Source: a virus | IMG/VR virus record: IMGVR_UViG_3300032046_000010 | Location: 1 to 64,000 of that record | Direction: 5' to 3' (one strand) | DNA length: 64,000 bases | Part shown: positions 1 to 46,864 of the stretch, in pieces | How the letters are laid out: the number at the start of each line of letters is the position of its first letter | How positions within the stretch are numbered: the stretch's first letter is position 1 | Translations under genes and position numbers: made by a program | The notes under the pieces: generated by a model | Seen by the model: the letters and a program-made list of their open reading frames with translations, nothing else | The model's database searches: none | What the model was told of the DNA's origin: nothing

Positions 1-455
1 GGCCAACTGGACGCATTGAATGCGCAACATCTGCCGGCCCTCCCCCTGAGGCCCACCGCCCCTTTGCTCGACCTCGACAACGGCTTGGTACATCGTCAGG
101 CTCCGCCCCTCCCCTGGGGCCTCCCCTCCCCGGCCGACCTCCCAGCCCGCTCCCCCGTCCAAGCCTTGTACCCTTCGCATCGTTGATCAAGCCTTGTACC
201 CTTCGCATCGTTGAGCAGGGATGACACCTGCCCCCAGTTGATTTGCATCGTTGGTTTCGCCGCTCAAGAACTGCGCCCTGGTCCTTGTACCACCTGTCCT
301 CCCTCCGGCCTCCCCTCCCATCGCTCTGTTCGCCTCGCCGCGTTCCTGCTGGGATTCCGGTCAAGACTTCAGTGCCCGTCCCCATACCCTTTCAGGGCAA
401 TCGTGACACGAAACTTGATCAGTTTGCTCAGGTCTGACATCCCCTGGCCCATGGG
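1..455. other. Gene-free left end of the window
   Basis: No convincing coding region is seen on either strand. The plus strand is pyrimidine-rich (many ccctcc runs) and carries one tandem direct repeat at 161-215. The short open frames here have no ribosome binding site and a composition unlike the phage genes. It runs directly into the repeat field at 456-1377. Confidence 0.6.
161..215. repeat. Tandem 28-bp direct repeat, two copies
   Basis: Positions 161-188 and 189-215 match base for base over 27 positions, both starting caagccttgtacccttcgca. A shorter related piece (tgcatcgttg) follows near 245. No gene overlaps it. The function is unknown. Confidence 0.85.
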
Positions 456-590
456 GTAGGATAAGGTATGCGAAGGTAGGATAAGCGCCAGCGCCTTCCC
501 TACTCCAGCGGCCAAGGTAGGATAATGCAGGACGCATATCCTACCCCGTCAGACGACAGGGGCCAAAGTAGGATAAACAGGGACGCATAT

Positions 591-653
591 CCTACCTAGG
601 CTGATACTTCCCTACTGTAGCATACCTTTCCCTACCTTGACAGCCTAGGTAGG
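591..653. repeat. Inverted repeat, 13-bp arms
   Basis: Arm 591-603 (cctacctaggctg) is the exact reverse complement of arm 641-653, separated by 37 bases that hold further cctac pieces. It could form a cruciform or hairpin, or bind a dimeric protein. Confidence 0.8.
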
Positions 654-670
654 GAATACAGCGACGCATA

Positions 671-760
671 TCCTACCCCGTCAGATACAGTCGGTGTTTA
701 TCCTACCCCGTCAGATACAGTCGGTGTTTATCCTACCCCGTCAGATACAGTCGGTGTTTA
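671..760. repeat. Three perfect tandem copies of a 30-bp unit
   Basis: Units 671-700, 701-730 and 731-760 are identical. Each begins tcctaccccgtcagatacag, and each junction recreates the TATCCTAC octamer. A partial fourth unit, with one change, follows at 761-774. The units are contiguous without spacers, so this is an iteron-like tandem repeat and not a CRISPR array. Confidence 0.9.
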
Positions 761-787
761 TCCTACCGCGTCAGACGGGGTAGGATA
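759..787. repeat. Near-perfect 29-bp palindrome
   Basis: Arms 759-772 and 774-787 are inverted repeats of 14 bp with one mismatch around a single central base. It sits at the end of the 30-bp repeats and joins two opposed GTAGGATA octamers, a likely high-affinity dimer site. Confidence 0.8.
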
Positions 788-856
788 AGGTATGCTTAGG
801 TAGGTCAAGGTCAGCCGCGTATCCTACCTTGGGCGTCCAGTCAATGCAGTGGGTAG

Positions 857-2399: not shown

Positions 2400-2716
2400 C
2401 GCCCCGACTCCCTCATCGCCCGCCGCGCCTCATCCTCTGCCGCCTGCTTGAACATCGTGATGAGCGTCTTGGCGATACGCTCGCCCTCCATCCTTGAGAA
2501 GTCCTTGACGCCCAGGACTGACATCGTCAGCACGGTGTCGTCCACCATCCGGGTCGTCATGATCCCCTCGACTCCGGCCTTGGTCAGAATCGGGATAGAC
2601 AGCGAGATCATCGTGGCCTTCTTCAACCGCTTGAAGCCCAACTGGAACTGGTGGCCGCCGATGTTGTCGATGACTCCCTCCCTGACGGCTTCCTCATCCA
2701 GCTTGTGAGTCTTCAT
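2396..2716 (-). CDS. Hypothetical protein
   Basis: 106 aa, unrecognised. The ATG at 2716 (MKTHKLDEEAV) is chosen because it forms an ATGA overlap with the upstream stop. A longer in-frame extension reaches 2806 but would be buried in the neighbour. It looks like a soluble alpha/beta protein with a hydrophobic core segment (TMISLSIPILTKAGVEGIM). Confidence 0.75.
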   Translation of the reverse strand: MKTHKLDEEAVREGVIDNIGGHQFQLGFKRLKKATMISLSIPILTKAGVEGIMTTRMVDDTVLTMSVLGVKDFSRMEGERIAKTLITMFKQAAEDEARRAMRESGR

Positions 2717-3309
2717 CTCAGCTCCTGTTCCCGAACGTGCTGATCCATCAGGCTGATCAGCTTCAGATCTTCCGCTTCGATGACGCTGGTGGCAAGGCAC
2801 GTCCAAAGCTCGGTGTCGAGTGCCCGCCGGTACTCACGCGACTGAGAGCCGGGGTTGGTGTCCTGGCAGCTGTAGCACCCTGGGCAAGCTACCAGCGCTT
2901 GTTCGATCAGCACCCGCCCATCAGCATCTTTCACCGTCGCTGGGATCAACCTCCGGCCGTTACAAACACGCTTCAGGTCCTCCAGCACCCGGTCCTTGAA
3001 CCAGAACGTCCTGGACGGCTTGTAGATGGGCTTCCACTTCGGCGGGGGTCCGAAGTCCCGCGTGATCTCCCTGATGGGGAAGTGATCCCGTTCCAGCCCT
3101 CCCGTTCCCGGCCTGACGTAGTGTGCGATGATGACCATCGTGTAGTAGCGCCCGGCCTCGCCGCGCGACTCGCCCTTCAGCATCTGGATGGCGTGGACGA
3201 TGGCGTCCTTGAGCTTGGTCAGGTAGATGCCACGGACCTTGAACACCTCATCGTGTAGGTCGTGGTGCGGGCCTCCGTACATCCTGATGGAGTAGGTGCG
3301 CCTGTTCAT
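2713..3309 (-). CDS. Hypothetical protein
   Basis: 198 aa starting MNRRTYSIRMYGGPHHD at a TGATG junction with the upstream gene. It has a CPGCYSC cysteine cluster in the C-terminal third, possibly metal binding. No family is recognised. Confidence 0.75.
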   Translation of the reverse strand: MNRRTYSIRMYGGPHHDLHDEVFKVRGIYLTKLKDAIVHAIQMLKGESRGEAGRYYTMVIIAHYVRPGTGGLERDHFPIREITRDFGPPPKWKPIYKPSRTFWFKDRVLEDLKRVCNGRRLIPATVKDADGRVLIEQALVACPGCYSCQDTNPGSQSREYRRALDTELWTCLATSVIEAEDLKLISLMDQHVREQELR

Positions 3310-3563
3310 CACTTGCCTCCGAACCGCTTGGTACAGTACACAGGATGGCTGAACTGATCCCGTGGCGGGAGCCGACACGCCAGCATCCCATCACCAACCA
3401 TCTTGTCGCAAGCGTCCTGAACCGCCTTGACCATCCCCGCCCGGCCGCGTGGATTGTTCTCCCAACGCTCCCCGAACACGATCACGGCGATGGTCCATGA
3501 GCTGTTCATCCCGTTGAGGGACCGCTCGATGACCTTGAGGCACTTGGTCTGGAAGTCGGTCAT
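3309..3563 (-). CDS. Hypothetical protein
   Basis: 84 aa starting MTDFQTKCLKVIERSLNG. The ATG at 3563 overlaps the upstream stop (ATGA). No family is recognised. Confidence 0.75.
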   Translation of the reverse strand: MTDFQTKCLKVIERSLNGMNSSWTIAVIVFGERWENNPRGRAGMVKAVQDACDKMVGDGMLACRLPPRDQFSHPVYCTKRFGGK

Positions 3564-4142: not shown

Positions 4143-4681
4143 CGTCGCCTCCCGCCTTCCTTGATCTTGATGTTGGTCACGGGAGCATCTGGCAACCCCT
4201 CGATCACCAGCGTCCCGTCCGGCTCCCGCTTGCCGTTGTACATGTCGGATGCGAACCGGAACAGCGTGGTGAAGTCGCCGTTCTGGTCGATGAGGTCGTT
4301 GAGCGCGTTGGCGTGAGCCTGGCCAACCATGATGTTGCCCGGCTTGCCCTCAACCATCCACGGGCGAGTCCCTTCCAGCTGGTCCCTGAGCGTGGTGCGC
4401 CTGCTGTTGATGATTTGCATCAGGCTGCCAGTATCCACGCCGCCCTCGATGCCGCCCTTGAGGTCACGCTGGAGGTTGTGAAGGTAGCTGAGGCGAGTCT
4501 CGACCCTGACCGCCTCATCCGCGTTCCACTTGATGAAGTCGTACAGCCGCTTGCCGGGCTGGATCCTTTCCATCAGACTGTCCAGCCGCTCCTGCTCCGA
4601 CCGGATCATCACGCCCAGTTCCTTCAGGATTGCCTTGGCCTGCGCCTTCCGGGTCGCCGCTCCCTTCAGGGTCTCAGTCAT
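4139..4681 (-). CDS. Hypothetical helical protein
   Basis: 180 aa from MTETLKGAATRKAQAKAILK; two upstream ATGs (4693, 4705) in the same frame are possible. The N-terminal half is charged and likely coiled coil. No family is recognised. It overlaps the upstream deacetylase-like gene by about 8 bases. Confidence 0.75.
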   Translation of the reverse strand: MTETLKGAATRKAQAKAILKELGVMIRSEQERLDSLMERIQPGKRLYDFIKWNADEAVRVETRLSYLHNLQRDLKGGIEGGVDTGSLMQIINSRRTTLRDQLEGTRPWMVEGKPGNIMVGQAHANALNDLIDQNGDFTTLFRFASDMYNGKREPDGTLVIEGLPDAPVTNIKIKEGGRRR

Positions 4682-5372
4682 CTGGGCCTCCATCGCAGAA
4701 CCCATCCAGGTTCCGTATCAACATGAACTCCTCTGCGAACCTGTAGCCGACCCGTGAGCCACACAGCTCAGCGTATCGCTTCAGCATCGTCAGCGACCTG
4801 GGGTGCGGTGGCTCTGGTAGCTCGCTGGGGTAGCACTCCAGCGCGTCCAGCTTGCGCTCGATGACCGACTCGATGTCCACATACCAGTTGGGCGTGAACA
4901 CTCGGCCGGTCGTGAACGGGATCCAGTCGGTTGAGGACGGAGCCGTGTACACCAGGACTCGCCTCACGCAGCAGTCCGGCTTTGGACGGGTCGCCACCAT
5001 CGTGCTCTCATACAGGATCTGATGGTCCCTGTTGATGTCACCATGGAAGTGGGTGAACACCGTGTGCGGCTGTAGCCGCTCGATCAGGTCCTCCAACATC
5101 CGGTTGATGTCCACCTGGGACAGTGTGTCGAGCCTCTGGTTGGGTAGGTTCAGGAACGCCGGAGGCTCGATGCCCAGCTTCACGCAAGCCCGCCGACAGC
5201 AGTTGCGCATCCGCTCGTCAGCCTCCGTGGATGAGCCGTGCCGCACGATGGCATGGCCAGCCACGATGATGGGCTTGACTGCCCACCCGCTGGCTGCGAG
5301 CAGTGCCAGCGTCCCACCCAACCCAAGGGTCTCATCATCCGGGTGAGCGCTGATGACCAAGGCGCACTTCAC
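4674..5372 (-). CDS. LmbE/PIG-L family de-N-acetylase-like protein
   Basis: 232 aa with a GTG start at 5372 in a GTGA overlap. The N-terminus CALVISAHPDDETLGLGG is the hallmark AHPDDE metal-binding motif of the LmbE/PIG-L family, and THFHGDINRDH supplies the later HxxDxxxDH-type ligands. Members remove acetyl groups from GlcNAc-containing molecules using zinc. Together with a glycosyltransferase at 21598-22599 it could act on a sugar attached to DNA or another phage product (inference). Confidence 0.85.
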   Translation of the reverse strand: MKCALVISAHPDDETLGLGGTLALLAASGWAVKPIIVAGHAIVRHGSSTEADERMRNCCRRACVKLGIEPPAFLNLPNQRLDTLSQVDINRMLEDLIERLQPHTVFTHFHGDINRDHQILYESTMVATRPKPDCCVRRVLVYTAPSSTDWIPFTTGRVFTPNWYVDIESVIERKLDALECYPSELPEPPHPRSLTMLKRYAELCGSRVGYRFAEEFMLIRNLDGFCDGGPDD

Positions 5373-5968
5373 GGCCGGACTCCGCGCTTGCGAGCCTTGA
5401 CGCGCTCCCAGTCGGCCCGCGTCATGATGATGGCCACACCCCAAATGCTAGGCTTCATCAGGAACCCGGCATCCCGCAGTAGCGCCGTCGCCATCTGGTT
5501 GCGCCAACCGGCCCTGCGTTCGCCCTTCCCAGGCTTCCGGTAGATCATCACGCAGTGCTGAAGCGACAGCCCCATGTCCGACACGCTGAACTCATCGCCT
5601 GAATCTGCCACCAACAGATCTGCGATGGTGTCCAGGTTCCACTTGGCGACCTCGCCGCCTGGGAACTTGGTGAACTCATCCTTGTTGTGACACCGTGGCG
5701 GAACAGTGAAGGCTGGCTTGTGTCCGAACCGCCCTGCCGTCTCACCCGCCACTTCCATCGAGGCTGCGGCCATGTCCATCTTTTCGATGGGCGGTGTCAT
5801 GTCCGGCTCCGCGTCCAGTTCGTTGTACTGGTGAAGGCGAGTGTGATCTGCCAACGTGTTGAGCTTGGACCACTGCTCCGACATCACACCATCGCCGTCG
5901 ATGACAGTCTTGTCCGACTCCGGCCGGGGTCTGCTGAAGTGCTTGCGCCACTCTTCCAAGGTTGGCAT
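5369..5968 (-). CDS. Hypothetical protein with MPTL N-terminal peptide
   Basis: 199 aa, unrecognised. The first residues MPTLEEWRKHFS closely match the starts of the proteins at 28607-29260 (MPTLDEVRQRYS) and 37149-37787 (MPTLDDLRKRFT), although the rest differs. A linker (ELDAEPDMTPP) follows, then a mixed globular region. Confidence 0.75.
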   Translation of the reverse strand: MPTLEEWRKHFSRPRPESDKTVIDGDGVMSEQWSKLNTLADHTRLHQYNELDAEPDMTPPIEKMDMAAASMEVAGETAGRFGHKPAFTVPPRCHNKDEFTKFPGGEVAKWNLDTIADLLVADSGDEFSVSDMGLSLQHCVMIYRKPGKGERRAGWRNQMATALLRDAGFLMKPSIWGVAIIMTRADWERVKARKRGVRP

Positions 5969-16342: not shown

Positions 16343-17106
16343 CAGTCGGCTCCGGCTCCCCGGGCGGTCAACCACTCCCGGCCCAACAAGTTGACTGGGT
16401 GCGCCTTGGTCACTCGGTTGAACACCCTCACAGCATGTTCATCCAGGTCGGACATCAACAGGATGCCGCGCCTTAGCAAGACCTCGACTTGGACCATCAT
16501 CGCCACTGTGTAGGCTGCGGCCAGGTCCTCTGACACCGGGTAGGCGCTGCGCTTCTTGGTGGTTGTCGCGTTGAAGTGCCTGAAGTCCTGCCCCCACTTC
16601 TTGCGCACAGCCGCCTCGACCTCCAGCCCGGCGGCATCGCCGCGACCGGCCGCGAACAGCTTGACGCTGAGCGGGTCGTGAGGACGGACGGAGCGCCCGC
16701 GACAAAGCCAACGCGCCAGCCCTCCCAACTCACCATACTGGTACGCAGATGAGCTGACGGCTGTGAAAGCATAGTCCTCAATGCCCACGTGTTGGGCATC
16801 GGTGTTCCGCTTCAGGAACACGTTGAGGACGCGCCCCCACCAGACCAGCCGGTCAAAGGTGGTCCGGTCCCGCTCCTTGTACGGAGACTTGTACATCACA
16901 GCCTGGAACGGTAGCTCAGCCCTGGCAAGGCAGTTCTTGCGCTCCGTGGAGTACAGCGCATGGCGGATGTCGAACCCTCGGAGGCACACCAACGCGCCGT
17001 GGTTGAGGCTGAGGTCCATCCCGATGACGAGTGACCCGGGCAGCGCCCTGCCAAGCTCCTGCGCCCGCCTGCCAGCGATTGATAGCCAGTTGGTACTCTC
17101 GCTCAT
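16342..17106 (-). CDS. RuvC-like Holliday junction resolvase (RNase H fold)
   Basis: 254 aa starting MSESTNWLSIAGRRAQELGR. VIGMDLSLNHGALVCL carries the first catalytic Asp, VGIEDYAF the second acidic residue, and SEDLAAAYTVAMM the last acidic cluster, the order seen in RuvC-like nucleases. It lies next to SbcD-SbcC and FEN genes, consistent with resolving branched DNA before packaging. It is longer than bacterial RuvC (about 170 aa). Confidence 0.8.
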   Translation of the reverse strand: MSESTNWLSIAGRRAQELGRALPGSLVIGMDLSLNHGALVCLRGFDIRHALYSTERKNCLARAELPFQAVMYKSPYKERDRTTFDRLVWWGRVLNVFLKRNTDAQHVGIEDYAFTAVSSSAYQYGELGGLARWLCRGRSVRPHDPLSVKLFAAGRGDAAGLEVEAAVRKKWGQDFRHFNATTTKKRSAYPVSEDLAAAYTVAMMVQVEVLLRRGILLMSDLDEHAVRVFNRVTKAHPVNLLGREWLTARGAGAD

Positions 17107-20100
17107 TCCGCCCCTCCCACCACCACGGAGGACACGCCGCCGTCCTTCACCACCGTCCACACGTTGTCGAATGAACCCTTGACATCTGCATCGTGCGACA
17201 CCACGAGGATGGTGCCCTTGGTCTTGCGCAGCTCATCCAGGAGCCACAGCACCCGGGTCTTGCCGGTTGCGTCCAACCCATCGAACACCTCATCCAGGCA
17301 GAGCAGATCCACGTTCGCTCCCTCCCGCTCTGCCACCAGGTCCATCAGGGACAGCTCCACAGCAAGTTCAATCTTGCGCATCTGTCCACCACTGGGAGCC
17401 GTCTCACCGTTGTGCTCGACCTCCGCCGTGATGCTGAACTTGTCCCGCGCCTCGCCGGACTTGGTGTGGCTCACCGTGTCGATGCTGATCTTGATGTCGC
17501 CGTCGCTCAGGGTCTGTAGGTAGGCGTTGGCCCGGTCGTTCAGTGGATCAGCGATGATGTCCATCATCCACGACTGAACGCCGGTCGCCCCGAACCCATC
17601 TGACCAGAACTCGGCCATCAGCTTCTCAGCGTTCAGGACCGACATCTTGGTGCCCAACAGCTTCAGCCCCTTGTCGATGGTCTCCAGTTCCGCCTTAGCC
17701 TCACGGATCAGGGCTGTGTAGGGGTTGACCGCATCCTTGGAACGCCTCGCCTCATCCTGCTTCTGCGCAGCCGAACGTCGAAGGGCATCCGCTTCCGCCT
17801 TGGCGTCTGTAGCCTTGCGCAATGCTGATTTGGATTCCAACAAGTCACTGCGAGCCTGGGCCGCCTTCTGGTCCAACTTGTCCCGCTCGCCGGACTCAGC
17901 GCTCAGTTTCTTGTCGCGCTGCTTCTCCAGTTCCGCGTCCTTGGCCTCGATGTCGGCCAGCTGCCCTCGCAACAACTCCAGCTCATCCTTGAACTCCGTC
18001 TTGTGCTTCGCCGCCTCCCCCTTCGACAAGTCGCTGAAGCAGACAGGACAGATTCCGTTTGTCATCTGCTCCAGCCGCTGAGTGAGCGACTTGATCCCGC
18101 CCCTCAGCAGTCCCTGCTTCCCAGCGCTGACCTTCAGCGCCCGCTCGCAGTCCTCACGGACGGCCGACAACTCCTTGTCCAACTTGGAGCTGGACTCCAT
18201 CAGGTTGGTCAGCGTTTCCTCGATGGACTGAACCCGCTTCTCAGCCCTTCCGGGGTCGGCCTTGATGGCGGCTGCCTCCGCCTCCATCTCGGCAGCTTCA
18301 TCCTGTAGCCGCTTGACCTCAAGCTCGTGGGTGTCCTTCCAGTCAGCGGACAACCCACGTAGCTCCGTCAGCCGGTTGGAGTCCCGTCGCCCCGTCAGCC
18401 CGGCCTCCTGCCGCTGTAGGACATCCAGCTCATCTACGATAGCCCGGCCCGCCTTGGCGCAAGCGTCACGCGCCACATCGAACACTCCCAGTCCTAGCAC
18501 ATCACGCAGGATGGCCTTCCGGGTCGCATCTGTCGCCGCCGGGTCTGCGAACCGCTTGGTGTCGTTCTGCCCAAACAACACCGTGTTGCGGAACGTGTCG
18601 AAGTCCAGGCCCACGATGCGGAGCGCCTCATCCTGTAGCTCGTTGACGCCTCCCGCCAGAGCCTTCCCGCCGCGCTCGATGATCAGCGTTGCGCTGGAAG
18701 ATGTCGGCTTCTCACGGGTGACCTTGACCTGCTCCCCGTCCACGCTGAACGTGAGAGTGACTTTGGCCCCCTTGGAACCCTGTCGTACCAGCGCGTTGCC
18801 TGTCTCATTGCGATAGATGGTCTTGCCGTACAACGCCCATGTGATGGCCTTGAACAGTGTGGTCTTGCCCGCTCCGTTGCTATCTGCTGCCGCGCTGTCC
18901 CGGTTGTCGGCTCGCACTGACACAAGTCCGGCCCGCTTCAGGTCCAGGTCGGCCGACCCGATGGGGCCAAAGTCCTGGATAGTCAGGTGTTCCAGTTCCA
19001 CATGACAACGCTTGCTGGTGACTGTCCGCGACTCCGCGATGGCCTTGTCCAGCACTTCGGTTCCGTATCGCAGCAACGCTTTGCGGTCTGCTCCCTCCGG
19101 CATCGTGAGTGAGTCCAACCAGATGGTCAGGGACTTGCGCAAGTCAGAGCGCCCCTCGGCCATCTCCTTGGAACGCACCTTGGACTCGGTGCGTACGATG
19201 CGCTCATCCGCCACAACCCGCCGGAACCCGGTGTTGGACAACTTCGGGATCAGCCGGTCGCTGAACTTGCGGACGGCGTGCTTGGTACCACGGATGGTGA
19301 CACGCAAGTAGCCCACCGCTTCCGGTAGCCGCTCCGCCAGGTCCTTGATCGAGCCGTCGTCAAACAGGTCCACCTCGATGGTGCGGAACGGGACCGTGAC
19401 CACGGAAGGCAACGGGATAGCCGACAGCTCCAGTGTGTTGCCATCGAGCATCCAAACGCATTTTGTCCCCTCGTCACGGAAGTCGATGGGGAGTGGCGAC
19501 CCCACATACCATCCGCGTTTCACACCTTCCAGCTTCTGTTTGGTGTGGACGTGCCCCGACAGCACCAAGTCGAAGTGCTTGACATCGGATGACAACAGCC
19601 CGTCCTTGAAGGTGTGGCCGTATTCCGCCGCGCCCTTGAAGGTCGTGTGGAGGCAACCTGCCAACCCCTTCCCATTGGCCCGGTCGGCCTCCAGCGTCTT
19701 GCGTAGCTGGGGAACCGGTGCATAGGGGTACAGCCGGATGCGGGAGTCTGGGATGGTGACCGGCTCCGTGGGGACCTTCACGCCCCTGACCGCCTCCAAC
19801 CACTTGTTGGTGAAGTGGATCAGCCGCGCGTCGTGGCTCTCATGGTTCCCGGGAAGCACCCAGATCTGCGTGAACGACTTGGCCAGCCTCCGCATGGTCT
19901 GGCTCGCTGCTGTCAGCGTCACGGCGTCCAACAGCTTCCGGTCGAAGTAGTCACCCAGAATGAGCAACCCTTCTGCGCCGTGCTTCTGTCCCAAAGCAGC
20001 GATGTACTTGGCCATCCGGCGGATGTCCAACATCCGGTCGGTGACGCCGGTGTCCCAGTCCAGAACGCTGTACGGGAGTGCGTTACACCAATGCCAGTCA

Positions 20101-20120
20101 GCCGTGACGATGAACTTCAT
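17103..20120 (-). CDS. SbcD-SbcC (Mre11-Rad50) single-chain fusion
   Basis: 1005 aa in one unbroken frame. The first about 350 aa are an Mre11/SbcD calcineurin-like nuclease: TADWHW, GDYFDRK, LPGNHES, GCLHTTF and LSGHVHTKQ supply the metal ligands. The rest is SbcC/Rad50: Walker A in SNGAGKTTLFKAITWALYGK, Q-loop VLFGQNDT, long coiled coils with a zinc-hook GICPVC, ABC signature PSGGQMRKIELAVELS and Walker B DLLCLDEVFDGLD. Normally these are two proteins (T4 gp47/gp46). It should process DNA ends for recombination. The ATG at 20120 lies in a TGATG junction. Confidence 0.93.
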   Translation of the reverse strand: MKFIVTADWHWCNALPYSVLDWDTGVTDRMLDIRRMAKYIAALGQKHGAEGLLILGDYFDRKLLDAVTLTAASQTMRRLAKSFTQIWVLPGNHESHDARLIHFTNKWLEAVRGVKVPTEPVTIPDSRIRLYPYAPVPQLRKTLEADRANGKGLAGCLHTTFKGAAEYGHTFKDGLLSSDVKHFDLVLSGHVHTKQKLEGVKRGWYVGSPLPIDFRDEGTKCVWMLDGNTLELSAIPLPSVVTVPFRTIEVDLFDDGSIKDLAERLPEAVGYLRVTIRGTKHAVRKFSDRLIPKLSNTGFRRVVADERIVRTESKVRSKEMAEGRSDLRKSLTIWLDSLTMPEGADRKALLRYGTEVLDKAIAESRTVTSKRCHVELEHLTIQDFGPIGSADLDLKRAGLVSVRADNRDSAAADSNGAGKTTLFKAITWALYGKTIYRNETGNALVRQGSKGAKVTLTFSVDGEQVKVTREKPTSSSATLIIERGGKALAGGVNELQDEALRIVGLDFDTFRNTVLFGQNDTKRFADPAATDATRKAILRDVLGLGVFDVARDACAKAGRAIVDELDVLQRQEAGLTGRRDSNRLTELRGLSADWKDTHELEVKRLQDEAAEMEAEAAAIKADPGRAEKRVQSIEETLTNLMESSSKLDKELSAVREDCERALKVSAGKQGLLRGGIKSLTQRLEQMTNGICPVCFSDLSKGEAAKHKTEFKDELELLRGQLADIEAKDAELEKQRDKKLSAESGERDKLDQKAAQARSDLLESKSALRKATDAKAEADALRRSAAQKQDEARRSKDAVNPYTALIREAKAELETIDKGLKLLGTKMSVLNAEKLMAEFWSDGFGATGVQSWMMDIIADPLNDRANAYLQTLSDGDIKISIDTVSHTKSGEARDKFSITAEVEHNGETAPSGGQMRKIELAVELSLMDLVAEREGANVDLLCLDEVFDGLDATGKTRVLWLLDELRKTKGTILVVSHDADVKGSFDNVWTVVKDGGVSSVVVGGAE

Positions 20121-20542
20121 CAACCAACCTCGAATGGCGCTGGCTCTGGAACGCCGACCAACGTCACCACAGCATGAGTCGCATTGGACACGATGGACGG
20201 TGTCAAACGCCAAGTATGCGGCCCCACACAATCCAAACCCCAAGCTTGCGGGGCCTGTTCGCCTTCCTTGGGCGGCAGCGGCAATCCTACGCGCACAGGA
20301 AGCGTCAACACTTCCTTCGATGCGAGGCGCAAAATCAACTCGATGCCACGCATCCTCGACCGAACGAACCCGACAAGGTCTCCAGGACGCTCGTCAGTCA
20401 ACACGCCATCTGACCATTGCGCGAACATCGCGTCTCCCACCACCCCGATACCGCGTGCCATTTCAGCGATCTGTTCATCGCTGATGAACAATGCCCCGTG
20501 TTGACCGCAACGTGAACAACACACATCTATCTCTGCTGGCAT
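20120..20542 (-). CDS. Hypothetical protein with N-terminal zinc pair
   Basis: 140 aa starting MPAEIDVCCSRCGQHGALFI. The CxxC pair suggests part of a zinc ribbon, followed by a helical and a beta-rich region. It lies between RecA and SbcDC. No family is recognised. Confidence 0.75.
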   Translation of the reverse strand: MPAEIDVCCSRCGQHGALFISDEQIAEMARGIGVVGDAMFAQWSDGVLTDERPGDLVGFVRSRMRGIELILRLASKEVLTLPVRVGLPLPPKEGEQAPQAWGLDCVGPHTWRLTPSIVSNATHAVVTLVGVPEPAPFEVG

Positions 20543-23963: not shown

Positions 23964-24501
23964 CTCCGTCATCCTCCTGCGCAGAGTCCTTCACCCCGCG
24001 CTTCATGGCAGCCCTCACCTTGGCATCGTTGTCCTGGCGCTTGCCGCCGTCCTTGCTGAACACTGGGTCCAGGTCAGTTGATGCGTCCAACTCCGCTCGC
24101 CGGTCGGCACGGAGGGTCCGCAACATGTCCATCTTCTTGTCGTAGCCTTGCGCCGCCGCATCCGCGATGTCCGCTGCTTTCTGGAAGTCTGCGATGCGTC
24201 GCTTGTACAGGCTGAAGTCATCGGTGTCGGTGACCAAGTTGTCGCGCTTCCCCTCCGACAACTTGGGGTCCTTTGCTAGCAAGCTGTTCGCTTCCCTTGC
24301 GCGCCAACGCCTGTAGTCCCGGTCGGCCAAGGATACCTTCCGCCGCGCCCGCGCCGCAACGATGAGCCACCACGCGAACTTGGCAGCCGCTTGCTTGAGG
24401 TCTGGATCGTCACGGCCGGTGATGATGAGATCGGCCGGGTTGAACGTGTACACGTCCGTCCCAAGCTTGATCTCCTGTACGTTGTCGAGCTGGGACGGCA
24501 T
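23956..24501 (-). CDS. Hypothetical helical protein, possible recombination mediator
   Basis: 181 aa starting MPSQLDNVQEIKLGTDVYTF. The pattern is helical and rich in Lys/Arg/Asp with an acidic tail (SAQEDDGDE). No family is recognised. Its position between SSB and HU-like genes, and close to RecA, makes a UvsY-like loading role possible (inference from position only). Confidence 0.75.
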   Translation of the reverse strand: MPSQLDNVQEIKLGTDVYTFNPADLIITGRDDPDLKQAAAKFAWWLIVAARARRKVSLADRDYRRWRAREANSLLAKDPKLSEGKRDNLVTDTDDFSLYKRRIADFQKAADIADAAAQGYDKKMDMLRTLRADRRAELDASTDLDPVFSKDGGKRQDNDAKVRAAMKRGVKDSAQEDDGDE

Positions 24502-24803
24502 CAGTTGCCCCCGCGCTTGGTACCCTTGGCCGCCCCCTTCGGCTTGTCGTCCACCAACTCGTGCCGGGCCTGAGCGGAGGCATGGAAGGCCAGACGCTCA
24601 TACGCCGGGACCTGGGCCGTGCCGGTCGCCAGGACGCTGCTGGTGATGGTGCGGGGCTTGGACCGCTTGACCTTGAAGGTCCCGAACCCCTTGATGATGA
24701 CCGACTCGCCCGCGAAGCATCTGGCCAAGATGGCGTTGAAGATCTCAGCCGCCTCCTCATCCTTCAGCCCCGCCTGCCTCGCAACCTCGTGGATTCCTGC
24801 CAT
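24501..24803 (-). CDS. HU/IHF-like DNA-binding protein
   Basis: 100 aa. MAGIHEVARQAGLKDEEAAE and GESVIIKGFGTFKVKRSKPRT match the helical N-terminus and the GFGTF hallmark before the beta arm of HU/IHF proteins. The usual arm Arg-Asn-Pro tip is replaced (VLATGTAQVPAYERLAF). A Lys-rich tail follows. It bends or compacts DNA. Confidence 0.85.
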   Translation of the reverse strand: MAGIHEVARQAGLKDEEAAEIFNAILARCFAGESVIIKGFGTFKVKRSKPRTITSSVLATGTAQVPAYERLAFHASAQARHELVDDKPKGAAKGTKRGGN

Positions 24804-24839
24804 CTTCATACTCCCTTCTGTTTGCGCGTGACTCCCGTG

Positions 24840-27800
24840 TCACGCTATCCTAGCGCGTGCCTCCAGAACCTTCAGCCGCTCTGCGTCCCTTGACTCCAGT
24901 GTGAATGCATCCCCGTTGTTCGTCGCCCGAACCTCGATGATGTCTCCCACGTTGAACTTCCCCTTGAACGATGGCCAGGATGACCCAAAGCAGATGAGGT
25001 CGATGTAGCCCTTGTATCCCAGCAACCCCATGAAACACATCTCGCTCATCCGCTTGTCGAGCCGGATGTTCATGTGGGTTACAATGCCCACCGCCTTGAA
25101 TCCGCTCTTGGCGTTGCTCGCCGTCTGTTCGATGTCATCCTTGGAGTGCTGCTTGACAGGGTGCCGCCCCTTCAACAACGCCCGTTCAAACACGTCCAAC
25201 GGCTCCCCCGCATCGAGCCTCCGGCGAAGCAAATCCAAGTCTACCATGAAGTGGATCCTGATGGAGTGCCACTTGGCGTCGATGGTAGCGTGGAAAGCAA
25301 CGGGAGTCCCGATGCCCCTGTCGATGATCGGTCTATGCTCATCGAACGTGTCAACGTCAATCTTGGCCCTGTTGTTCTTGCCGCTGATGTCCTCCACGTT
25401 GATGTTGGCGTACCTAGCGCCCCAACGCATCTTCAGTTTGGTTTCCTCGCTGGGAGCCTCGCCGGTATGGAAGTCGCCAATCTGGTTGTACTTGATCTCA
25501 ACCAGGATGCCGTGTAGGAACCCATGCGGACGCGAGTACAGATCCTCATCATCCATCCGCTCCCACTTCACGTTCATCCTGTCGTTCAACAGTTCTTGGT
25601 AGGGAACAAGCGGATGCTTACCACTGGCAAGGGGGCAGACCTCTGCGGCCGTCCACACAGCGTCCTGTTCGCTGTGCTGAGGTTCCTTCCTCGACCGCAA
25701 CAACATCTCCGCCACATCGACATCGCCGCTAGACTTGGCCAGCGCCTTCCAGACATCCTCGATGTGCTCCACGAACCACTTGCGGTTGGGGAACAGCTGA
25801 TCCAGAGCGCCAGAGCGGGCAAGCGCCAACACCACTCCCTTGTGGACCTTCCGCCGGTCCACGCGGCCAATGAAGTCGATGAACGACTTGAACGGTTGTA
25901 CCGCCTCGATGCTCTGCGCCGCTATCCCGCCACACCCCTTCACATCCACGAGCGAACCCAGGATGTCGGGTCCGTCGATGATGTAGCTGGCCTTGCTGCG
26001 GTTGATGTCCGGCAGCTTGACCTTGATGCCCAGCCGGTCGGCTTCCTTGACGTACCTACGGATGGCTTGTTCGTCCGGCTCGCAAGACAACAGCGCCCAC
26101 ATGAACTCGATGGGATAGTACGTCTTGAGGAACATCTCACGATAGCTGATGAGCCCGTAAGCAGTGGAGTGCGACTTGTTGAATCCGTATGAACCAAACA
26201 TCGTGATCTGGTCCATCAGCTTCGCAGCCAACACCGGATCATGCCCCCTCGCCGCCGCTCCCTTGATGAAGTTTTCGCGCTCCTTGCCAAGTGCCGCATC
26301 GCCCCACTTCTTGGCGATCTTCTTGCGCAAGCTGTCGGCGGTCCCGGGAGCGAAGCCAGCGAAGTCGGTGAACATCTTGATGACATGCTCTTGGTACACA
26401 ATGACGCCGTAGGTGTCGGAGCAGATCTGGTCCACCAGCGGGTGGATGGTCTTGATCTTGCTAGGGTCCTTTTTGCGCTTCAGATACTCTGCCGCCAGAC
26501 CGCTCCGCGCCGTTCCCGGCCGGTCCAAGGCGATCATCGCGGCCACGTCCTCAAAGCTGGTGAACTGTACGCCCTCGGTGATCTTGTCTGCGCTGGGGGT
26601 ATCGTACTGGAACACGCCCGCGTAAGCATGAGCAGTGAAGTTGGCCAGCACATTCAGGTCGTGAAGGTCGATGCGGTCCCAGTTGATCTCGACCCCATGC
26701 CGTTCCTTCACAGCCTTGAGACAACGCTTCATGACGGTCAGGTTGCGCAACCCCAACACGTCCATCTTCACCAGGCCGACTCCCTGGACGCCGTACATCT
26801 CAAAGCCAGTGATGATCTCCTGCTTCCCGGCCGACTCCCTCATCTCCATTGGGATGATGTCTACCAGCGGAACCGGCGAGACCACGAAGCCCGCCGCGTG
26901 CTTGCCCAATCCCCTGACGTGGCTCTCCAGAACGCGCGCATGCTCCAGGACCTCCGGGTGGCGCTCATTGAACTTGCGGCACACCTCAAAGTCCTTGAAG
27001 CTATCCTCGATGGTCTGGCTGGCCCGCTCGTCACCACTCGACCGCTCGATCACGCTGCTGGTAACCTCGTCAACCTCCGACATCGGTATCTGGAGCACCC
27101 GTGAGATGTCCTTGATGCATTGCTTCCCCTTGAGCGTCATCAGGGTGCTGATCTGGGCTGTCTTGTCCTCCCCGTAGCGGTGTCGCAGGTATGTGAACAC
27201 CTCTTCACGGCGCTCATCCTCAAAGTCCATGTCGATGTCGGGCAGGTCGATGCGGTCTGGGTTGAGGAACCGCTCGAAAATGAGACCGTGTTCGATGGGG
27301 TCGGTGTCCGTGATGTTGAGCAGGTAGCTGACGAAGCACCCGCCCGCGCTCCCCCTCCCGGGTCCACACTCAATGTGAGCATCGTTCTTGGCCCAACGGT
27401 ACAGGTCCCAGACCACCAGGAAGTAGCGCACCACGTTCTGCTTCTTGATGGCCTTCAACTCATGTCGGAGCCGCGCGATGTACTGCTCATGAAGCTCGCT
27501 GGAAGTGATACCGCGCCGGACGGCCAACTCATCGATGCGTCGCGGCATCTCCCGCGACTCCCAACCCACCCAACACAGGTGCATCATGTACTTGAACTCA
27601 TCGTTGTCGAAGTGTTTGGGGATGTCGATGGCCGGGACCAGCGCCTTGAAACGGTCCACTTCAAAGCTGGCCTGGCACTTCTCAGCAATCTCCAGCGTGT
27701 TCAACATTGCCCGCCGGACCTCCGGCTCAGGCATGTAGGGGTGGGAGCGCCGGAACGCATCCAACATCTCATCCCACGTCTTGAGCCAGAAGTCCTGGAC

Positions 27801-28610
27801 GCTGAACTTGAACCTGTCGGGGTTGCTCATGAAGTCGTGAGTGCGGATACACAGCATGACCTCGTGGGTCTTGACGTGCTCCTTCTTGATGTAGTGGGCG
27901 TCCACGGTGGTCACCATCGGTCGGCCGAACCGCTTGTGGTACTTCAGCATCGCCCGGTTGACCATGGCCTGCTCTGGCATATTGGTCGGCTGGATCTCCA
28001 GATAGAAGTCCTCACCAAACAGGTCCACAAACCATTCCATGCGACGGTCGGCCAACTCCTGGTTGCGATGTACGATCTGGTGAGGGACCACACCCTCCAT
28101 ACAGCCGGATAGGACGATCAGCCCCTCGCGGTGCTTCTCCAGGGTCTCCAGGTCGATGCGTGGCCGCTTCCAGAACCCCTCAAGATAGCCCACAGAGGTC
28201 ATCTTGAACAGGTTGAGTAGCCCCACCTGATTCTTGGCCAAGACCGTCAGGTGATACCGTTGGCGGAGGCCCAGCTCAACCTCCCGCTTGTAGATGGCCT
28301 CCCCGATGCCCTTGCGGCCCTTGTTCTCCGCCCTGATCCGCTCGTCATCCTCCGGCGGCAGACCTCGTGCGTGGCGGCTCTCACACAGGTAAAACTCACA
28401 ACCGTAGATTGGCCACGGCCGCGCTTCGGGGTCCATGTTGAACACGTTCTCATGAAGCTTGTATGCTCCACGCATCGAGCCATGTTCTGTGAAGGCGATG
28501 GCCGGGTGCCCCAACTCGACCGTCCTGTTCAGGTAGTCTTGCTGCCGTCCCAAGCCGTCCAACAAGGAATATTCACTGTGTACGTGGAGGTGAACGAATG
28601 GCTTGCTCAT
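24840..28610 (-). CDS. dnaE: DNA polymerase III alpha subunit (DnaE family, C-family polymerase)
   Basis: 1256 aa. The N-terminal PHP domain starts HLHVHSEYSLLDG and has TEHGSMRGAYK and LIVLSGC; most metal ligands of proofreading-type PHP domains look present. The palm has CGPGRGSAGG, PDIDMDFEDERREEV with the two catalytic Asp, and VKMDVLGLRNLT. C-terminal parts include helix-hairpin-helix and an OB-like segment (VGIVTHMNIRLDKRMSEMCF). It is the phage replicase. ATG at 28610 in an ATGA overlap. Confidence 0.95.
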   Translation of the reverse strand: MSKPFVHLHVHSEYSLLDGLGRQQDYLNRTVELGHPAIAFTEHGSMRGAYKLHENVFNMDPEARPWPIYGCEFYLCESRHARGLPPEDDERIRAENKGRKGIGEAIYKREVELGLRQRYHLTVLAKNQVGLLNLFKMTSVGYLEGFWKRPRIDLETLEKHREGLIVLSGCMEGVVPHQIVHRNQELADRRMEWFVDLFGEDFYLEIQPTNMPEQAMVNRAMLKYHKRFGRPMVTTVDAHYIKKEHVKTHEVMLCIRTHDFMSNPDRFKFSVQDFWLKTWDEMLDAFRRSHPYMPEPEVRRAMLNTLEIAEKCQASFEVDRFKALVPAIDIPKHFDNDEFKYMMHLCWVGWESREMPRRIDELAVRRGITSSELHEQYIARLRHELKAIKKQNVVRYFLVVWDLYRWAKNDAHIECGPGRGSAGGCFVSYLLNITDTDPIEHGLIFERFLNPDRIDLPDIDMDFEDERREEVFTYLRHRYGEDKTAQISTLMTLKGKQCIKDISRVLQIPMSEVDEVTSSVIERSSGDERASQTIEDSFKDFEVCRKFNERHPEVLEHARVLESHVRGLGKHAAGFVVSPVPLVDIIPMEMRESAGKQEIITGFEMYGVQGVGLVKMDVLGLRNLTVMKRCLKAVKERHGVEINWDRIDLHDLNVLANFTAHAYAGVFQYDTPSADKITEGVQFTSFEDVAAMIALDRPGTARSGLAAEYLKRKKDPSKIKTIHPLVDQICSDTYGVIVYQEHVIKMFTDFAGFAPGTADSLRKKIAKKWGDAALGKERENFIKGAAARGHDPVLAAKLMDQITMFGSYGFNKSHSTAYGLISYREMFLKTYYPIEFMWALLSCEPDEQAIRRYVKEADRLGIKVKLPDINRSKASYIIDGPDILGSLVDVKGCGGIAAQSIEAVQPFKSFIDFIGRVDRRKVHKGVVLALARSGALDQLFPNRKWFVEHIEDVWKALAKSSGDVDVAEMLLRSRKEPQHSEQDAVWTAAEVCPLASGKHPLVPYQELLNDRMNVKWERMDDEDLYSRPHGFLHGILVEIKYNQIGDFHTGEAPSEETKLKMRWGARYANINVEDISGKNNRAKIDVDTFDEHRPIIDRGIGTPVAFHATIDAKWHSIRIHFMVDLDLLRRRLDAGEPLDVFERALLKGRHPVKQHSKDDIEQTASNAKSGFKAVGIVTHMNIRLDKRMSEMCFMGLLGYKGYIDLICFGSSWPSFKGKFNVGDIIEVRATNNGDAFTLESRDAERLKVLEARARIA

Positions 28611-29260
28611 GCTTTGTAACCGCTGTCTTCCATCCACTTGATAATCAGCGCCTTCAGGTCCTCACCGAAGTCCTCACGAAGCACCCATCGCAGGTAGTCT
28701 CGCTGATCCGGTCCCTCGACCACCAGCTGTGATACACGCTTCCCGCGATGTTGACCAAACATCAACACCGCATCCGGCTCCGACTCGCGGCCGGTTGGAC
28801 CTCCGACCTCAACCCATTTGGTTGGCTTCGGCTTCGTGACCAATGCCACGCGCCCCAAGATGCCGCGCCCGCACTTCTTGAACCTCCCGAAGCTAGCCAC
28901 CCTGACCGGCCTGAAACCATCCGCCTCCATCTGCTTGGCCCGCTCTTCATCGGACTTGGCGAATGCTTCCGACAGTGTGTTGCCGCAGTTGGGATGGGAC
29001 GGAGGTGTGGCCAAAATCCCGGCCACAGGATTCACTGCCCCCATCATGGGGATGTCAGGGATGCCGGTCTTTGGGCCTTTCTGCTGTGAAGGCTCCGGCT
29101 TGGACTCCGGTACAGGCACCAACCACTCAACAGCATCCTGCGTGGAAGCATCCACTTCCTGCGTGGGCTTCGGCTCCGGGTCAGGCCGCGCTTCCGGCTC
29201 CGGCTCCGCCTTGGGAGCCTGACCGCTGTAGCGCTGCCGTACCTCATCAAGCGTCGGCAT
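28607..29260 (-). CDS. MPTL-tagged protein with DUF3820-like C-terminus
   Basis: 217 aa. It starts MPTLDEVRQRYSGQ, shared with two other proteins in the window, then an acidic Pro-rich linker (EPEPEARPDPEPKPTQ). The C-terminal part (LMFGQHRGKRVSQLVVEGPD, then YLRWVLREDFGEDLK) resembles DUF3820, a small module often linked to nucleases. TGATG junction with the kinase-like gene. Confidence 0.7.
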   Translation of the reverse strand: MPTLDEVRQRYSGQAPKAEPEPEARPDPEPKPTQEVDASTQDAVEWLVPVPESKPEPSQQKGPKTGIPDIPMMGAVNPVAGILATPPSHPNCGNTLSEAFAKSDEERAKQMEADGFRPVRVASFGRFKKCGRGILGRVALVTKPKPTKWVEVGGPTGRESEPDAVLMFGQHRGKRVSQLVVEGPDQRDYLRWVLREDFGEDLKALIIKWMEDSGYKA

Positions 29261-29880
29261 CAGCCCACCGCCAGCAGTTCCTTGGCTCGTTGAAGGGTCG
29301 CAGACCGATCCAGGCCTGTCGTGTCCAGTCTGTAGACCTCCAAGCCCTCGACCCACGATACAGCCTCACAACACTTGGAGATCAGCTCAGCCTCCCTCGA
29401 CATCCACCCCTTCAAGCTCAACCCCATCTCTTCAGCACGCCCCAAGATGCGCGCTGGGAAGATCCTGTCGCCCGTCCGCTCCATCCTCTTGTTGAGGTCA
29501 CAGACCAGTTCCAGAACAACTCCATGCGCATCCCGCAACATCCGACCCCAGACGGCTGCGACCTCCCCGCCTTGCCCCTCCGGCAAACAAGTGAACACAT
29601 GATCCAGATCCATCGCATTGTAGGCAAGCGCTGAAGGCATCCCACGGTCACAGATCACGTCCGGCCGGAGCGCCCGAAACACGTCCATCTGGAACATGTC
29701 CTCGACCCACGTGTTGACCGGGAACACGGAGTGGATGCTGACCGGAAGGATGGAGCCGGGGGTGTGGTCGTCGCCGTCGCGTCTGAAGCTGCGGTACAAC
29801 GGGCGGTTGATGTCCTTGGACAGCGCTTTCCCCAGCGTGGTCTTGCCGGTCCCGATGCCGCCTTCCAACACGATGATCAT
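29260..29880 (-). CDS. P-loop nucleotide kinase (dNMP/thymidylate kinase-like)
   Basis: 206 aa starting MIIVLEGGIGTGKTTLGKAL, a P-loop typical of deoxynucleotide kinases; VICDRGMPSALAY resembles the DRxxxS lid/substrate motif of dTMP kinases. It probably phosphorylates a deoxynucleoside monophosphate. Beside ThyX-like and pyrophosphohydrolase genes it could act on a modified dNMP or on modified DNA (inference). ATGA overlap upstream. Confidence 0.75.
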   Translation of the reverse strand: MIIVLEGGIGTGKTTLGKALSKDINRPLYRSFRRDGDDHTPGSILPVSIHSVFPVNTWVEDMFQMDVFRALRPDVICDRGMPSALAYNAMDLDHVFTCLPEGQGGEVAAVWGRMLRDAHGVVLELVCDLNKRMERTGDRIFPARILGRAEEMGLSLKGWMSREAELISKCCEAVSWVEGLEVYRLDTTGLDRSATLQRAKELLAVG

Positions 29881-31145
29881 GGCTGGCCTCCGAAACAACG
29901 CGATGCCGCCCGGTCCAGTCTGGCCAAGGCTTGCTCCATCAACTCCGGCGGTGAGTTGAGTGGTGGACAGATGCGGAGCGGCCGGTGAGGCAGATGCGCC
30001 ATCAACAGCAGTCCTTCCTCCATCGCCCGATCACGGAAGGCAAAGGCATCGCTGTCTCCCCACTTCGGCGTCAGCGACCAGACCAACCCGGTCCCTTCCG
30101 CCTTGTCCACCCAACGGCGACAAGCGAAGCCGTTGCGCAGAATGGTCTCACAGTTGCGCACGTTCTCCAACACTCCGCGTTCCAAGCCGTCGATCAGCCA
30201 GTTGATGAGGTAGCCCGCCAACAGGTTCCCGCCGAACGTGCTGAAGTGGGTCCCGGGCTCAAAGCCCTTGGATGCTTCCTCCGTCGCCAAGCAAGCTCCG
30301 GCCGGGATGCCCATCGCCAACCCCTTGGCCAACGTGAGGATGTCCGGCTTGAACCGCTCGCCGCTCACGTCGGTGACAGCCGGGTTCATCCAAGCACACG
30401 GATAGCCGGTGCGCCCCATCCCCGACTGAACTTCATCGAAGATCACCAGGAACCCGTGCTTGGCCCGAAGCTCCGACAACCTGGACCAAAACACGGGGCC
30501 GTAGAAGCGCATCTGGTTGTGCGTCAGAACCGGAGACATGATGAGCGCCGCAATATCGGGCCAGTTGATGAGGAATCTCGCATCCGAAGGAACCTCAGAC
30601 GGTGTGGTGTGTAGATGGTATGTTTCCAAGTCCTGTTCGGCCATGTAGAATCCAGACGCAAACGGACCAAATCCCTGCTTGTAGTACGGCGTGGCGTTGG
30701 TCTGTGTGGCAGCGAGACTGAACCCTGTGCGACCGTGAAGTTGATCTGGCAATGACAAAATCACCTTGCGCCCTGGCTCCCCCTTGATATGGTGATAGCG
30801 CCTCGCCAGCTTGATGGCGGCTTCATTGGCCTCCGTCCCGCTGTTCGCAAAGAACACACGGTCCATGCCGCAGAACGCCGTCAGCCGGTCGGCCGTCGCC
30901 GTCCGTTCCGGCACGTTGTACCCGTTGGACACATGGACAGCCTGGGTGCTGTTGACCATGAAACACTCGATGGCACGCCTGAGATCCGTGTGCCCCAGCG
31001 AGGCCACTCCGCCATCACACCACAGGTCGAAGTATTGCCGGCCGTCCCGGTCGATCAGGAACCCATCAGCCGCGCCTTCGATGGTGGGCTCCAACGGCGG
31101 GAGCGAAGTGCGGATCAACGACCTGGGGTCAGCCTTCCCGCCCAT
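29877..31145 (-). CDS. Class III PLP-dependent aminotransferase
   Basis: 422 aa starting MGGKADPRSLIRTSLPPLEP. VFFANSGTEANEAAIKLARR, LHGRTGFSLAATQTNATPYY, FLVIFDEVQSGMGRTG and LTLAKGLAMGIPAGA (PLP lysine) are the ordered motifs of class III (ornithine/acetylornithine/GSAM-like) enzymes. It moves an amino group between an amine and a carbonyl compound. Such an enzyme is rare in a phage; in this cluster it may build an aminated base or its precursor (inference). All key motifs look intact. Confidence 0.9.
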   Translation of the reverse strand: MGGKADPRSLIRTSLPPLEPTIEGAADGFLIDRDGRQYFDLWCDGGVASLGHTDLRRAIECFMVNSTQAVHVSNGYNVPERTATADRLTAFCGMDRVFFANSGTEANEAAIKLARRYHHIKGEPGRKVILSLPDQLHGRTGFSLAATQTNATPYYKQGFGPFASGFYMAEQDLETYHLHTTPSEVPSDARFLINWPDIAALIMSPVLTHNQMRFYGPVFWSRLSELRAKHGFLVIFDEVQSGMGRTGYPCAWMNPAVTDVSGERFKPDILTLAKGLAMGIPAGACLATEEASKGFEPGTHFSTFGGNLLAGYLINWLIDGLERGVLENVRNCETILRNGFACRRWVDKAEGTGLVWSLTPKWGDSDAFAFRDRAMEEGLLLMAHLPHRPLRICPPLNSPPELMEQALARLDRAASRCFGGQP

Positions 31146-31149
31146 GACA

Positions 31150-32115
31150 TCATTCTCCCTTCGGCTTGGACCAACGGAACGGGTCGTGCCCCCACAGTTC
31201 CGCGTAGCCTGCGATGCGATCAACCGTGTCCTGATCCCCAGTCACTTCCCCGATCAGGTCGCCGTCCGGCTGGCGTCCGTGGTTCTCACAGTCGGCCACG
31301 AGGTACAGCGGGCAGGGCGCATGAGCATCCGACCCGTCGATGCGTCGCTGGTTCTCCAGGCGGTAGACGCAAGCGTTGAAGGTGTCGGTCAGCTTGTCCA
31401 CGCACGGTGGTGCGATGACCCGCCGGAACAGTGGGTCCACCTTGCGCTCCAGCTCAGCAACGATACCACGGATGATGGGTCCCCACAGACCGTATTGCAG
31501 GATCCAGCAGGACCGCTCCCCGATGATGTGGAGCAGAGCCGCCAGGTTGAGCGACCATGAGATGCGGTGCGTGGCCCCCAACGGGATCACGTCCCTGGCA
31601 TCCTCCATCGGCACGCCCGCCTCGACCAGTGCGTTGTAGGACCGCTCCGCCGATGCCATCGCCTGTTCGAACAGCGCAGCCGCCTTCGGTCGTTGGAACA
31701 CAGCATCGGCCGTCCTGTACTGCCCCTTCCTGGCGAACTCACCCATGCTCTGGATACGCATCGACTGCGACCAGAACCCGCTCTTGGCTAGGTCGGGCAC
31801 GATGTCAAGTCCCATCCGCTCCGGCGAGGCGCAGACGCCGATGCGGTGACGCACCATCTGCTCACGGAAGGACACCGACACGTCCTCCAGCATGAACACG
31901 AACCCCACGTGCTCAGCGATGGGGATGCGCTGCTCCAGGATCTGGAGGAACAGAGCATCGACCTCCCGCTTGAAGTCGGGGTCTTGGTTGCGCTTCAGTG
32001 CCAGCGCATCAGGCAGCATCAGCTGTTCCTCGCCCTTGCTGGCCTGCCAGACCGTGTAGATGGTCTCGACCGGGTTGCGGGTGCACGACAACAACGTCGC
32101 CTTGGGGTCGCTCAT
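31150..32115 (-). CDS. Diverged ThyX-like (flavin-dependent thymidylate synthase family) protein
   Basis: 321 aa, longer than usual ThyX (about 220-250). EHVGFVFMLEDVSVSFREQM and RHR at 89-91 match the conserved helix before the ThyX motif, and EDARDVIPLGATHRISWSLN matches the C-terminal helix. The rest of the RHRxxSxNExSxR motif is lost (RHRIGVCASPERMG). It may make thymidylate or hydroxymethyl-dUMP, or do another flavin reaction on a pyrimidine. ATGA overlap with the upstream gene. Confidence 0.78.
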   Translation of the reverse strand: MSDPKATLLSCTRNPVETIYTVWQASKGEEQLMLPDALALKRNQDPDFKREVDALFLQILEQRIPIAEHVGFVFMLEDVSVSFREQMVRHRIGVCASPERMGLDIVPDLAKSGFWSQSMRIQSMGEFARKGQYRTADAVFQRPKAAALFEQAMASAERSYNALVEAGVPMEDARDVIPLGATHRISWSLNLAALLHIIGERSCWILQYGLWGPIIRGIVAELERKVDPLFRRVIAPPCVDKLTDTFNACVYRLENQRRIDGSDAHAPCPLYLVADCENHGRQPDGDLIGEVTGDQDTVDRIAGYAELWGHDPFRWSKPKGE

Positions 32116-40041: not shown

Positions 40042-40057
40042 CTTCGCCTCCACGCTC

Positions 40058-40086
40058 CTACCAGTAAGCGAAAACCGGGCCGTTTG
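40058..40086 (-). promoter_or_regulatory. Promoter-like element, copy F
   Basis: Minus-strand core TTTTCGCTTACT (40074-40063) preceded by AAACGGCCCGG and followed by GGTAGGAG. It lies 17 bases upstream of the CobT-like start at 40041. Confidence 0.7.
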
Positions 40087-40096
40087 TGAACGGCCC
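40077..40096 (-). terminator. Rho-independent terminator-like hairpin
   Basis: On the minus strand GGGCCGTT-CACA-AACGGCCC forms a perfect 8-bp stem, followed by GG then TTTT, 13 bases after the CobS-like stop. Its 3' arm is also the upstream half of promoter copy F, so termination and initiation elements overlap. Confidence 0.55.
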
Positions 40097-40108
40097 TGGT
40101 TCCCAGTC

Positions 40109-41314: not shown

Positions 41315-41355
41315 GTTCCTCATCCTCCATCGGCGCGTCCCTCGCGCCTCTCACC

Positions 41356-46856: not shown

Positions 46857-46864
46857 TATCCTAC
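46857..46864 (-). promoter_or_regulatory. GTAGGATA octamer before the UvsW-like gene
   Basis: Exact copy of the octamer present 12 times at 456-827, here five bases before the helicase ATG, overlapping its ribosome binding region. It may be a shared binding site or a chance match of eight bases. Confidence 0.35.

Follow-up and report, generated by a model that had tools for sequence, protein, structure and literature searches.

Plasmid iterons generally lie in helical phase with one another, and a disturbance of that phase can inactivate the origin (review, PMC5043065). The same review describes weak DnaA sites that form two phased arrays, and bent DNA at the iterons of lambda (PMC5043065). 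In the PLE origin, one of several repeat types is the initiator iteron (PMC7145576). The centromeres bound by ParR consist of 10-, 11-, 17- or 20-bp repeats, and their DNA is wrapped in a solenoid (PMC9426499). An iteron array at the control region of a phage is of a kind that is already known. What varies in the locus described here is its extent, the presence of two unrelated motifs that nearly share one register, and the mixed orientation of the sites.

The locus belongs to a virus record of 93,062 bases, of which bases 1-64000 make up the window (the whole 64,000-nucleotide stretch that was analysed). The ends of the record share an overlap of about 135 bases with two mismatches, both within the last nine bases, which gives a circular map of about 92,927 bp. 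Its GC content is 62%, and every gene called by a simple gene caller (ORF/hexamer calls) lies on the minus strand. Matches to families of the Pfam and PHROGs type include the terminase large subunit (terL, 81771-83255), portal, protease, tail sheath, baseplate and tape measure proteins, as well as a UvsX-like recombinase. The phage also encodes a replication set: a DnaE-type DNA polymerase (24840-28637), a primase, a DnaB-like helicase and an SSB. Judged by these matches, the source of the window is a contractile-tailed, circular-mapping phage of 93 kb.

A few other genes may be mentioned. An ORF of 1046 aa (window 17103-20243) combines an SbcD-like family (42-410) with an SbcC-like family (356-1041) in a natural SbcD-SbcC fusion. 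At window 37843-41323 the gene for a CobT-type VWA protein adjoins one for a CobS-like AAA ATPase, an arrangement mostly kept in relatives. Genes for a PIG-L deacetylase and a class-III aminotransferase (window 4674-5444 and 29877-31223) suggest sugar or nucleotide modification by the phage.

Among the same ORF/hexamer calls, no gene-like ORF was found from 1 to about 2000. This stretch is part of the following feature.

1-2000 of the window and 92555-92927 of the record, no strand: the only large non-coding region, about 2.4 kb across the record ends (ORF/hexamer gene calls, end overlap)

Past it, the first gene (record 91460-92554, beyond the window) codes for a lipoprotein that has a signal peptide and a long Asp/Pro/Glu-rich spacer, which is odd in a phage and may be a hint to the host. 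Within the region, window 160-214 holds two perfect 28-bp tandem copies of CAAGCCTTGTACCCTTCGCATCGTTGAT that are unrelated to either of the arrays listed below.

456-827, no strand: array 1, 17 sites of the GTAGGATA type, 12 exact and 5 degenerate
456, 476, 517, 568 and 780 (plus), 537, 588, 669, 699, 729, 759 and 820 (minus): exact sites of array 1
649 and 800 (plus), 496, 608 and 628 (minus): degenerate sites of array 1, two mismatches each
669-758, minus strand: three perfect 30-bp tandem units, TATCCTACCCCGTCAGATACAGTCGGTGTT as read on the plus strand, with a partial fourth to 775
758-788, no strand: near-perfect palindrome made of two facing octamer units with 15-nt arms
591-653, no strand: inverted repeat with perfect 13-nt arms at 591-603 and 641-653, read from the sequence
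836-1411 (approximate start), plus strand: array 2, units of the GCCCATCA type, mostly 20-21 bp apart and clearest at 1011-1390

Much of array 1 had been seen in the initial annotation. The 12 octamer copies it reported in both orientations are indeed there, as exact GTAGGATA (5 plus, 7 minus); the chance expectation is 0.20 for the whole 64-kb window, and none of 100 shuffles reached 13. Both its three 30-bp tandem units and its inverted repeat with 13-bp arms were found again. The palindrome is present too (15-nt arms, 93%, 1-nt loop), though it measures 31 bp and not 29. The 372 bases said to be non-coding are non-coding, but this extent proved too small, as a second phased array follows. 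The five degenerate copies occupy gaps between the exact octamers, giving 17 consecutive sites with spacings of 20, 20, 21, 20, 31, 20, 20, 20, 21, 20, 30, 30, 30, 21, 20 and 20 bp.

Array 2, which the first reading overlooked, adjoins array 1 and is built on a different motif. Occasional steps of 10 or 11 bp between its units preserve the phase, and it continues more weakly towards 1535.

Both arrays consist of short asymmetric sites and are helically phased. The 12 exact sites of array 1 give R=0.976 at 10.10 bp, and R=0.983 if the tandem copies are left out; in neither case were any of 5000 random sets as high. All 17 sites share one 10.1-bp register regardless of orientation, and none of 100,000 random-spacing sets was equally regular. 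For array 2 (plus-strand sites, 1000-1400) R is 0.92 at 10.30 bp, a value reached by none of 3000 random sets, none of 100,000 jittered sets matches its regularity, and its Fourier peak is at 10.3 bp. Picking the motif sites by eye makes these tests somewhat favourable; autocorrelation does not depend on that choice. It has peaks in both arrays at about 10, 20, 30/31, 40-42 and 51-52, and when 3.2 Mb of viral DNA was scanned for 10-bp phasing with one score, the two arrays ranked first (22) and second (11), the next best stretch scoring 9, which is the noise level.

In non-coding DNA, a register of 10 bp that is kept whichever way the sites face points to the double helix, with proteins on one of its faces. 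Neither RNA structure nor coding sequence, the latter with its 3-bp period, would be expected to produce such a register. Array 1 does fold strongly as a single strand (z -8.8), because its copies are inverted, and there is no Rfam match within the window; the phasing in both orientations argues for duplex DNA and against RNA. Relaxed DNA has 10.5 bp per turn, and the shorter register of 10.1-10.3 bp would suit left-handed wrapping of the DNA.

Further features, the last of them outside the region, are the following.

563-642, no strand: segment of low stability within array 1, in the lowest 0.08% of the genome's 80-bp windows
1934-1983, no strand: low-stability segment beyond array 2, candidate unwinding element (50-bp window, lowest 0.05% of the genome)
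1729-1889, no strand: tract that is pyrimidine-rich on the plus strand (the coding strand is purine-rich), with the strongest purine skew of any 160-nt window in the 30 kb upstream of terL
24501-24809, minus strand: HU/IHF-family phage protein of 102 aa (PF00216, above the curated cut-off)

By wedge parameters, the predicted curvature of the two arrays lies at the 99.9th percentile of the genome (105-bp windows); this is a prediction only. By nearest-neighbour values, the segments 1934-1983 and 587-636 rank among the six 50-bp segments with the lowest stability in the genome. A strongly A+T-rich element is absent, and the candidate segment (lowest 0.05-0.1% in stability) is weak only relative to a 62%-GC genome. 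Phasing, predicted curvature, low duplex stability and the position in the sole large non-coding region together fit a nucleoprotein assembly site. It is very probable, going by these features of the sequence, that the region is a phased protein-binding site acting in cis, at which many protein copies would sit on one face of the DNA.

What such an assembly would do is less certain. The initial annotation likened the region to replication origins, partition sites or master control regions. The class was well chosen, with an origin as its most likely member, while partition has lost ground, no partition genes having been recognised among the called genes. Clustered short repeats in cis, helical phase and (predicted) bending of the repeat DNA, as known from iteron origins, all occur here. 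We regard an iteron-type cis site serving as the replication origin of the phage as the leading interpretation, and put the chance of its being correct at about even. The phage's own polymerase, primase, DnaB-type helicase and SSB speak for it, and so do the motif clusters that several relatives have in the corresponding arc of their genomes. If so, copies of one or two phage DNA-binding proteins would occupy one helix face over about 1 kb and would bend or wrap the DNA, possibly with help from the phage HU/IHF-like protein. Stress from wrapping might then open weak duplex, in array 1 itself or at 1934-1983, as a loading point for the phage's primase, DnaE-type polymerase and DnaB-type helicase. 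The HU/IHF-family protein (24501-24809) is a possible architectural partner of the arrays, although nothing links it to them directly.

Iteron origins usually have the gene for their initiator close by. No initiator of the Rep, O, P4-alpha or DnaA-like kind was recognised among the called genes, more than half of which were scanned against only one of Pfam and PHROGs; many of the small genes are without any family match. Nor did a candidate array-binding protein stand out among the phage genes. The consensus DnaA box TTATNCACA has no exact copy in the genome and a single one-mismatch copy in 1-2000. A partial likeness of TTATCC(TAC) to a DnaA box was considered and rejected. The GC-skew profile proposed in the initial annotation turned out to be uninformative: third-codon GC skew does not mark the region as an origin. 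The half-genome shift in this skew falls where structural genes give way to replication genes, and bidirectional replication starting at the array region should have given it the opposite sign.

Another potential role is transcriptional. A phage regulator might sit on the arrays and, through looping, activation or silencing, act on the promoter or promoters of a unidirectional genome, the first downstream gene starting at 92554. With all called genes on one strand, the region is a natural start of the transcription circuit, and an enhancer could take the form of phased operator arrays with predicted bending. But the array is about 830 bp away from the first downstream start codon, and a scan covering promoters of the sigma-70 type found none above chance; no terminator was found either. 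The octamer before other genes amounts to nothing beyond Shine-Dalgarno matches. Related sites had been reported before genes and did not hold up: those at 46857 (GTAGGATAGGGCATG) and 10604 (CTAGGATAGGAGGACATG) are both in the Shine-Dalgarno position just before an ATG, and the one near 24846 belongs to the 3'-terminal part of the DNA polymerase gene. Outside the array there is one exact GTAGGATA, again at a Shine-Dalgarno position, so that the many genomic copies typical of dispersed operators (stoperators) were not found. In a one-mismatch search over the record, array included, the reversed control was as frequent as the octamer (44 against 35). We rejected the dispersed octamers as a regulon; they are ribosome-binding sites or coding sequence. 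On balance a master control site for transcription seems unlikely.

Phage pac sites can be repeat clusters, that of P1 being an example. The phased repeats could then be the place where an oligomer of the small terminase binds and headful packaging starts. The assembly break of the record, about 320 bp from the start of array 1 (456) plus the overlap, would agree with this, and the initial annotation had raised the possibility of a genome end. That possibility is weakened by the overlap of about 135 bp, which makes the map circular; circular relatives break elsewhere, and the break is best read as an accident of assembly. A pac site usually lies in or adjoining the small-terminase gene, where the packaged DNA physically begins, but on the circular map roughly 9.7 kb separate array 1 from terL and its upstream neighbour (81771-83648). 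Known pac sites also make do with less than two long arrays of different motifs. Packaging is, in our judgement, an improbable function of the arrays.

Partition of a plasmid-like stage of the phage is less probable still, and we consider it remote. The region would be a centromere-like site wrapped by a ParR/TubR-like protein, and steps of 10 and 20 bp are the rule in array 2, as in ParR centromeres (PMC9426499). The sites of array 1, however, are in both orientations, the called genes include none like ParM, TubZ, ParA, ParB or ParR, and a search of the genome collection gave no prophage relative.

Searches with the polymerase and the terminase bring in a large family of uncultured phages, colinear with this phage from the terminase to the exonuclease; the collection of bacterial and archaeal genomes yielded no relative, prophages included. 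For the genes that adjoin the arrays there are almost no relatives (none was found for 91460-92554 and 2713-3378, which served as search anchors); these genes lie in a variable arc from the exonuclease gene to terL. In the window's phage the array region is about 10-12 kb upstream of terL. Several relatives have, in the same arc, long non-coding stretches with significant clusters of other motifs.

G012: CAGTTACCC, 11 copies
G013: AGTTACCCG, 9 copies
G021: ACAATCACC, 11 copies
G019: CCAATC-type cluster
G023, G011 and G016: weaker motif clusters
G039: copies of the GGGTATGGTT type
G037: copies of the GGTAAGTGTGTGACGG type

No significant cluster was found in G010. The distance from the motif region to terL is about 11-14 kb in G010, G019, G021 and G023, and 22-28 kb in G012, G013 and G037. 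In G019, G021 and G023, as in the window's phage (G000), this region contains the 160-nt window with the strongest purine skew in the 30 kb upstream of terL. Some of the contigs are incomplete, and the pattern is not met by every relative. Phasing at 10 bp was not found in the motif clusters of the relatives and was seen solely in the window's phage; candidates for it from an automatic scan were 3-bp coding repeats in an SSB-like gene. This absence of phasing counts against the origin reading, as does the missing cluster in G010. What recurs, then, is the position and the presence of a cluster, not the motif or the phasing.

Four relatives have a conserved element of about 110 nt next to their motif clusters (core TGAGGGCTCCCT ... 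ATGGCKGACCCA). It is non-coding, is absent from the window and has no Rfam match in the relatives' regions.

L237, 7398-7506, plus strand: element of about 110 nt
L232, 4134-4243, minus strand: the same
L370, 10695-10803, minus strand: the same
L367, 6926-7063, plus strand: the same

Clusters of the GTAGGATA pattern also occur in unrelated phages (L204, L175, L142 and L137 among the matches listed), and a stricter scan of viral contigs for the pattern gave 5 stretches. Since millions of contigs were scanned, such octamer clusters are not evidence of kinship. In one of them (L204:2406-2670), 11 GTAGGATA copies within 265 bp come immediately after a helicase-like gene of the DUF5906 family; this is possibly an origin with the same octamer. 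A nucleotide search with 430-1600 against 50,697 phage and 72,556 plasmid records returned one chance match of 31 bases and no counterpart.

A more speculative suggestion can be made. The arrays could be a scaffold of over 30 phased sites spread across about 1 kb, wrapped by an undescribed phage protein and serving as an origin or DNA organiser without any known initiator or partition family. The motif at this kind of locus would then have evolved separately in each lineage. We think this rather unlikely as a whole. We know of no description in the literature of replication initiation in this family of widespread, uncultured, contractile-tailed phages of about 80-110 kb with DnaE-type polymerases. 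If the origin reading is true, about 1.1 kb of DNA is the place to look for their origin and initiator. The extreme phasing permits a clean test, in which insertions of half a turn are compared with insertions of a full turn. The change of motif among relatives would then be a natural experiment on the co-evolution of a DNA-binding protein and its array of sites.

How does the locus compare with described systems? The type II plasmid centromeres (ParR-parC) resemble it in their 10/20-bp repeat units, which organise a wrap of DNA round a protein core (PMC9426499); it differs from them in its mixed orientation, its two motif types and the lack of partition genes found in the phage. The PLE satellite origin of Vibrio cholerae is, like this region, non-coding with several repeat types, but its RepA_N initiator is known (PMC7145576), whereas no such gene was recognised in the window's phage. 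With the iteron origins of plasmids P1, RK2 and R6K and of phage lambda the locus shares clustered cis repeats that are helix-phased and, here by prediction, bent (PMC5043065). The repeats of those origins lie near weaker duplex (PMC5043065), and the arrays lie near segments that are weak relative to the rest of the genome. Unlike them it has no recognised adjacent initiator gene, no strongly A+T-rich element and no DnaA boxes. The orientation of array 1 is mixed, and there are far more sites (17 and about 20), set out over about 1 kb in two arrays of unrelated motifs.
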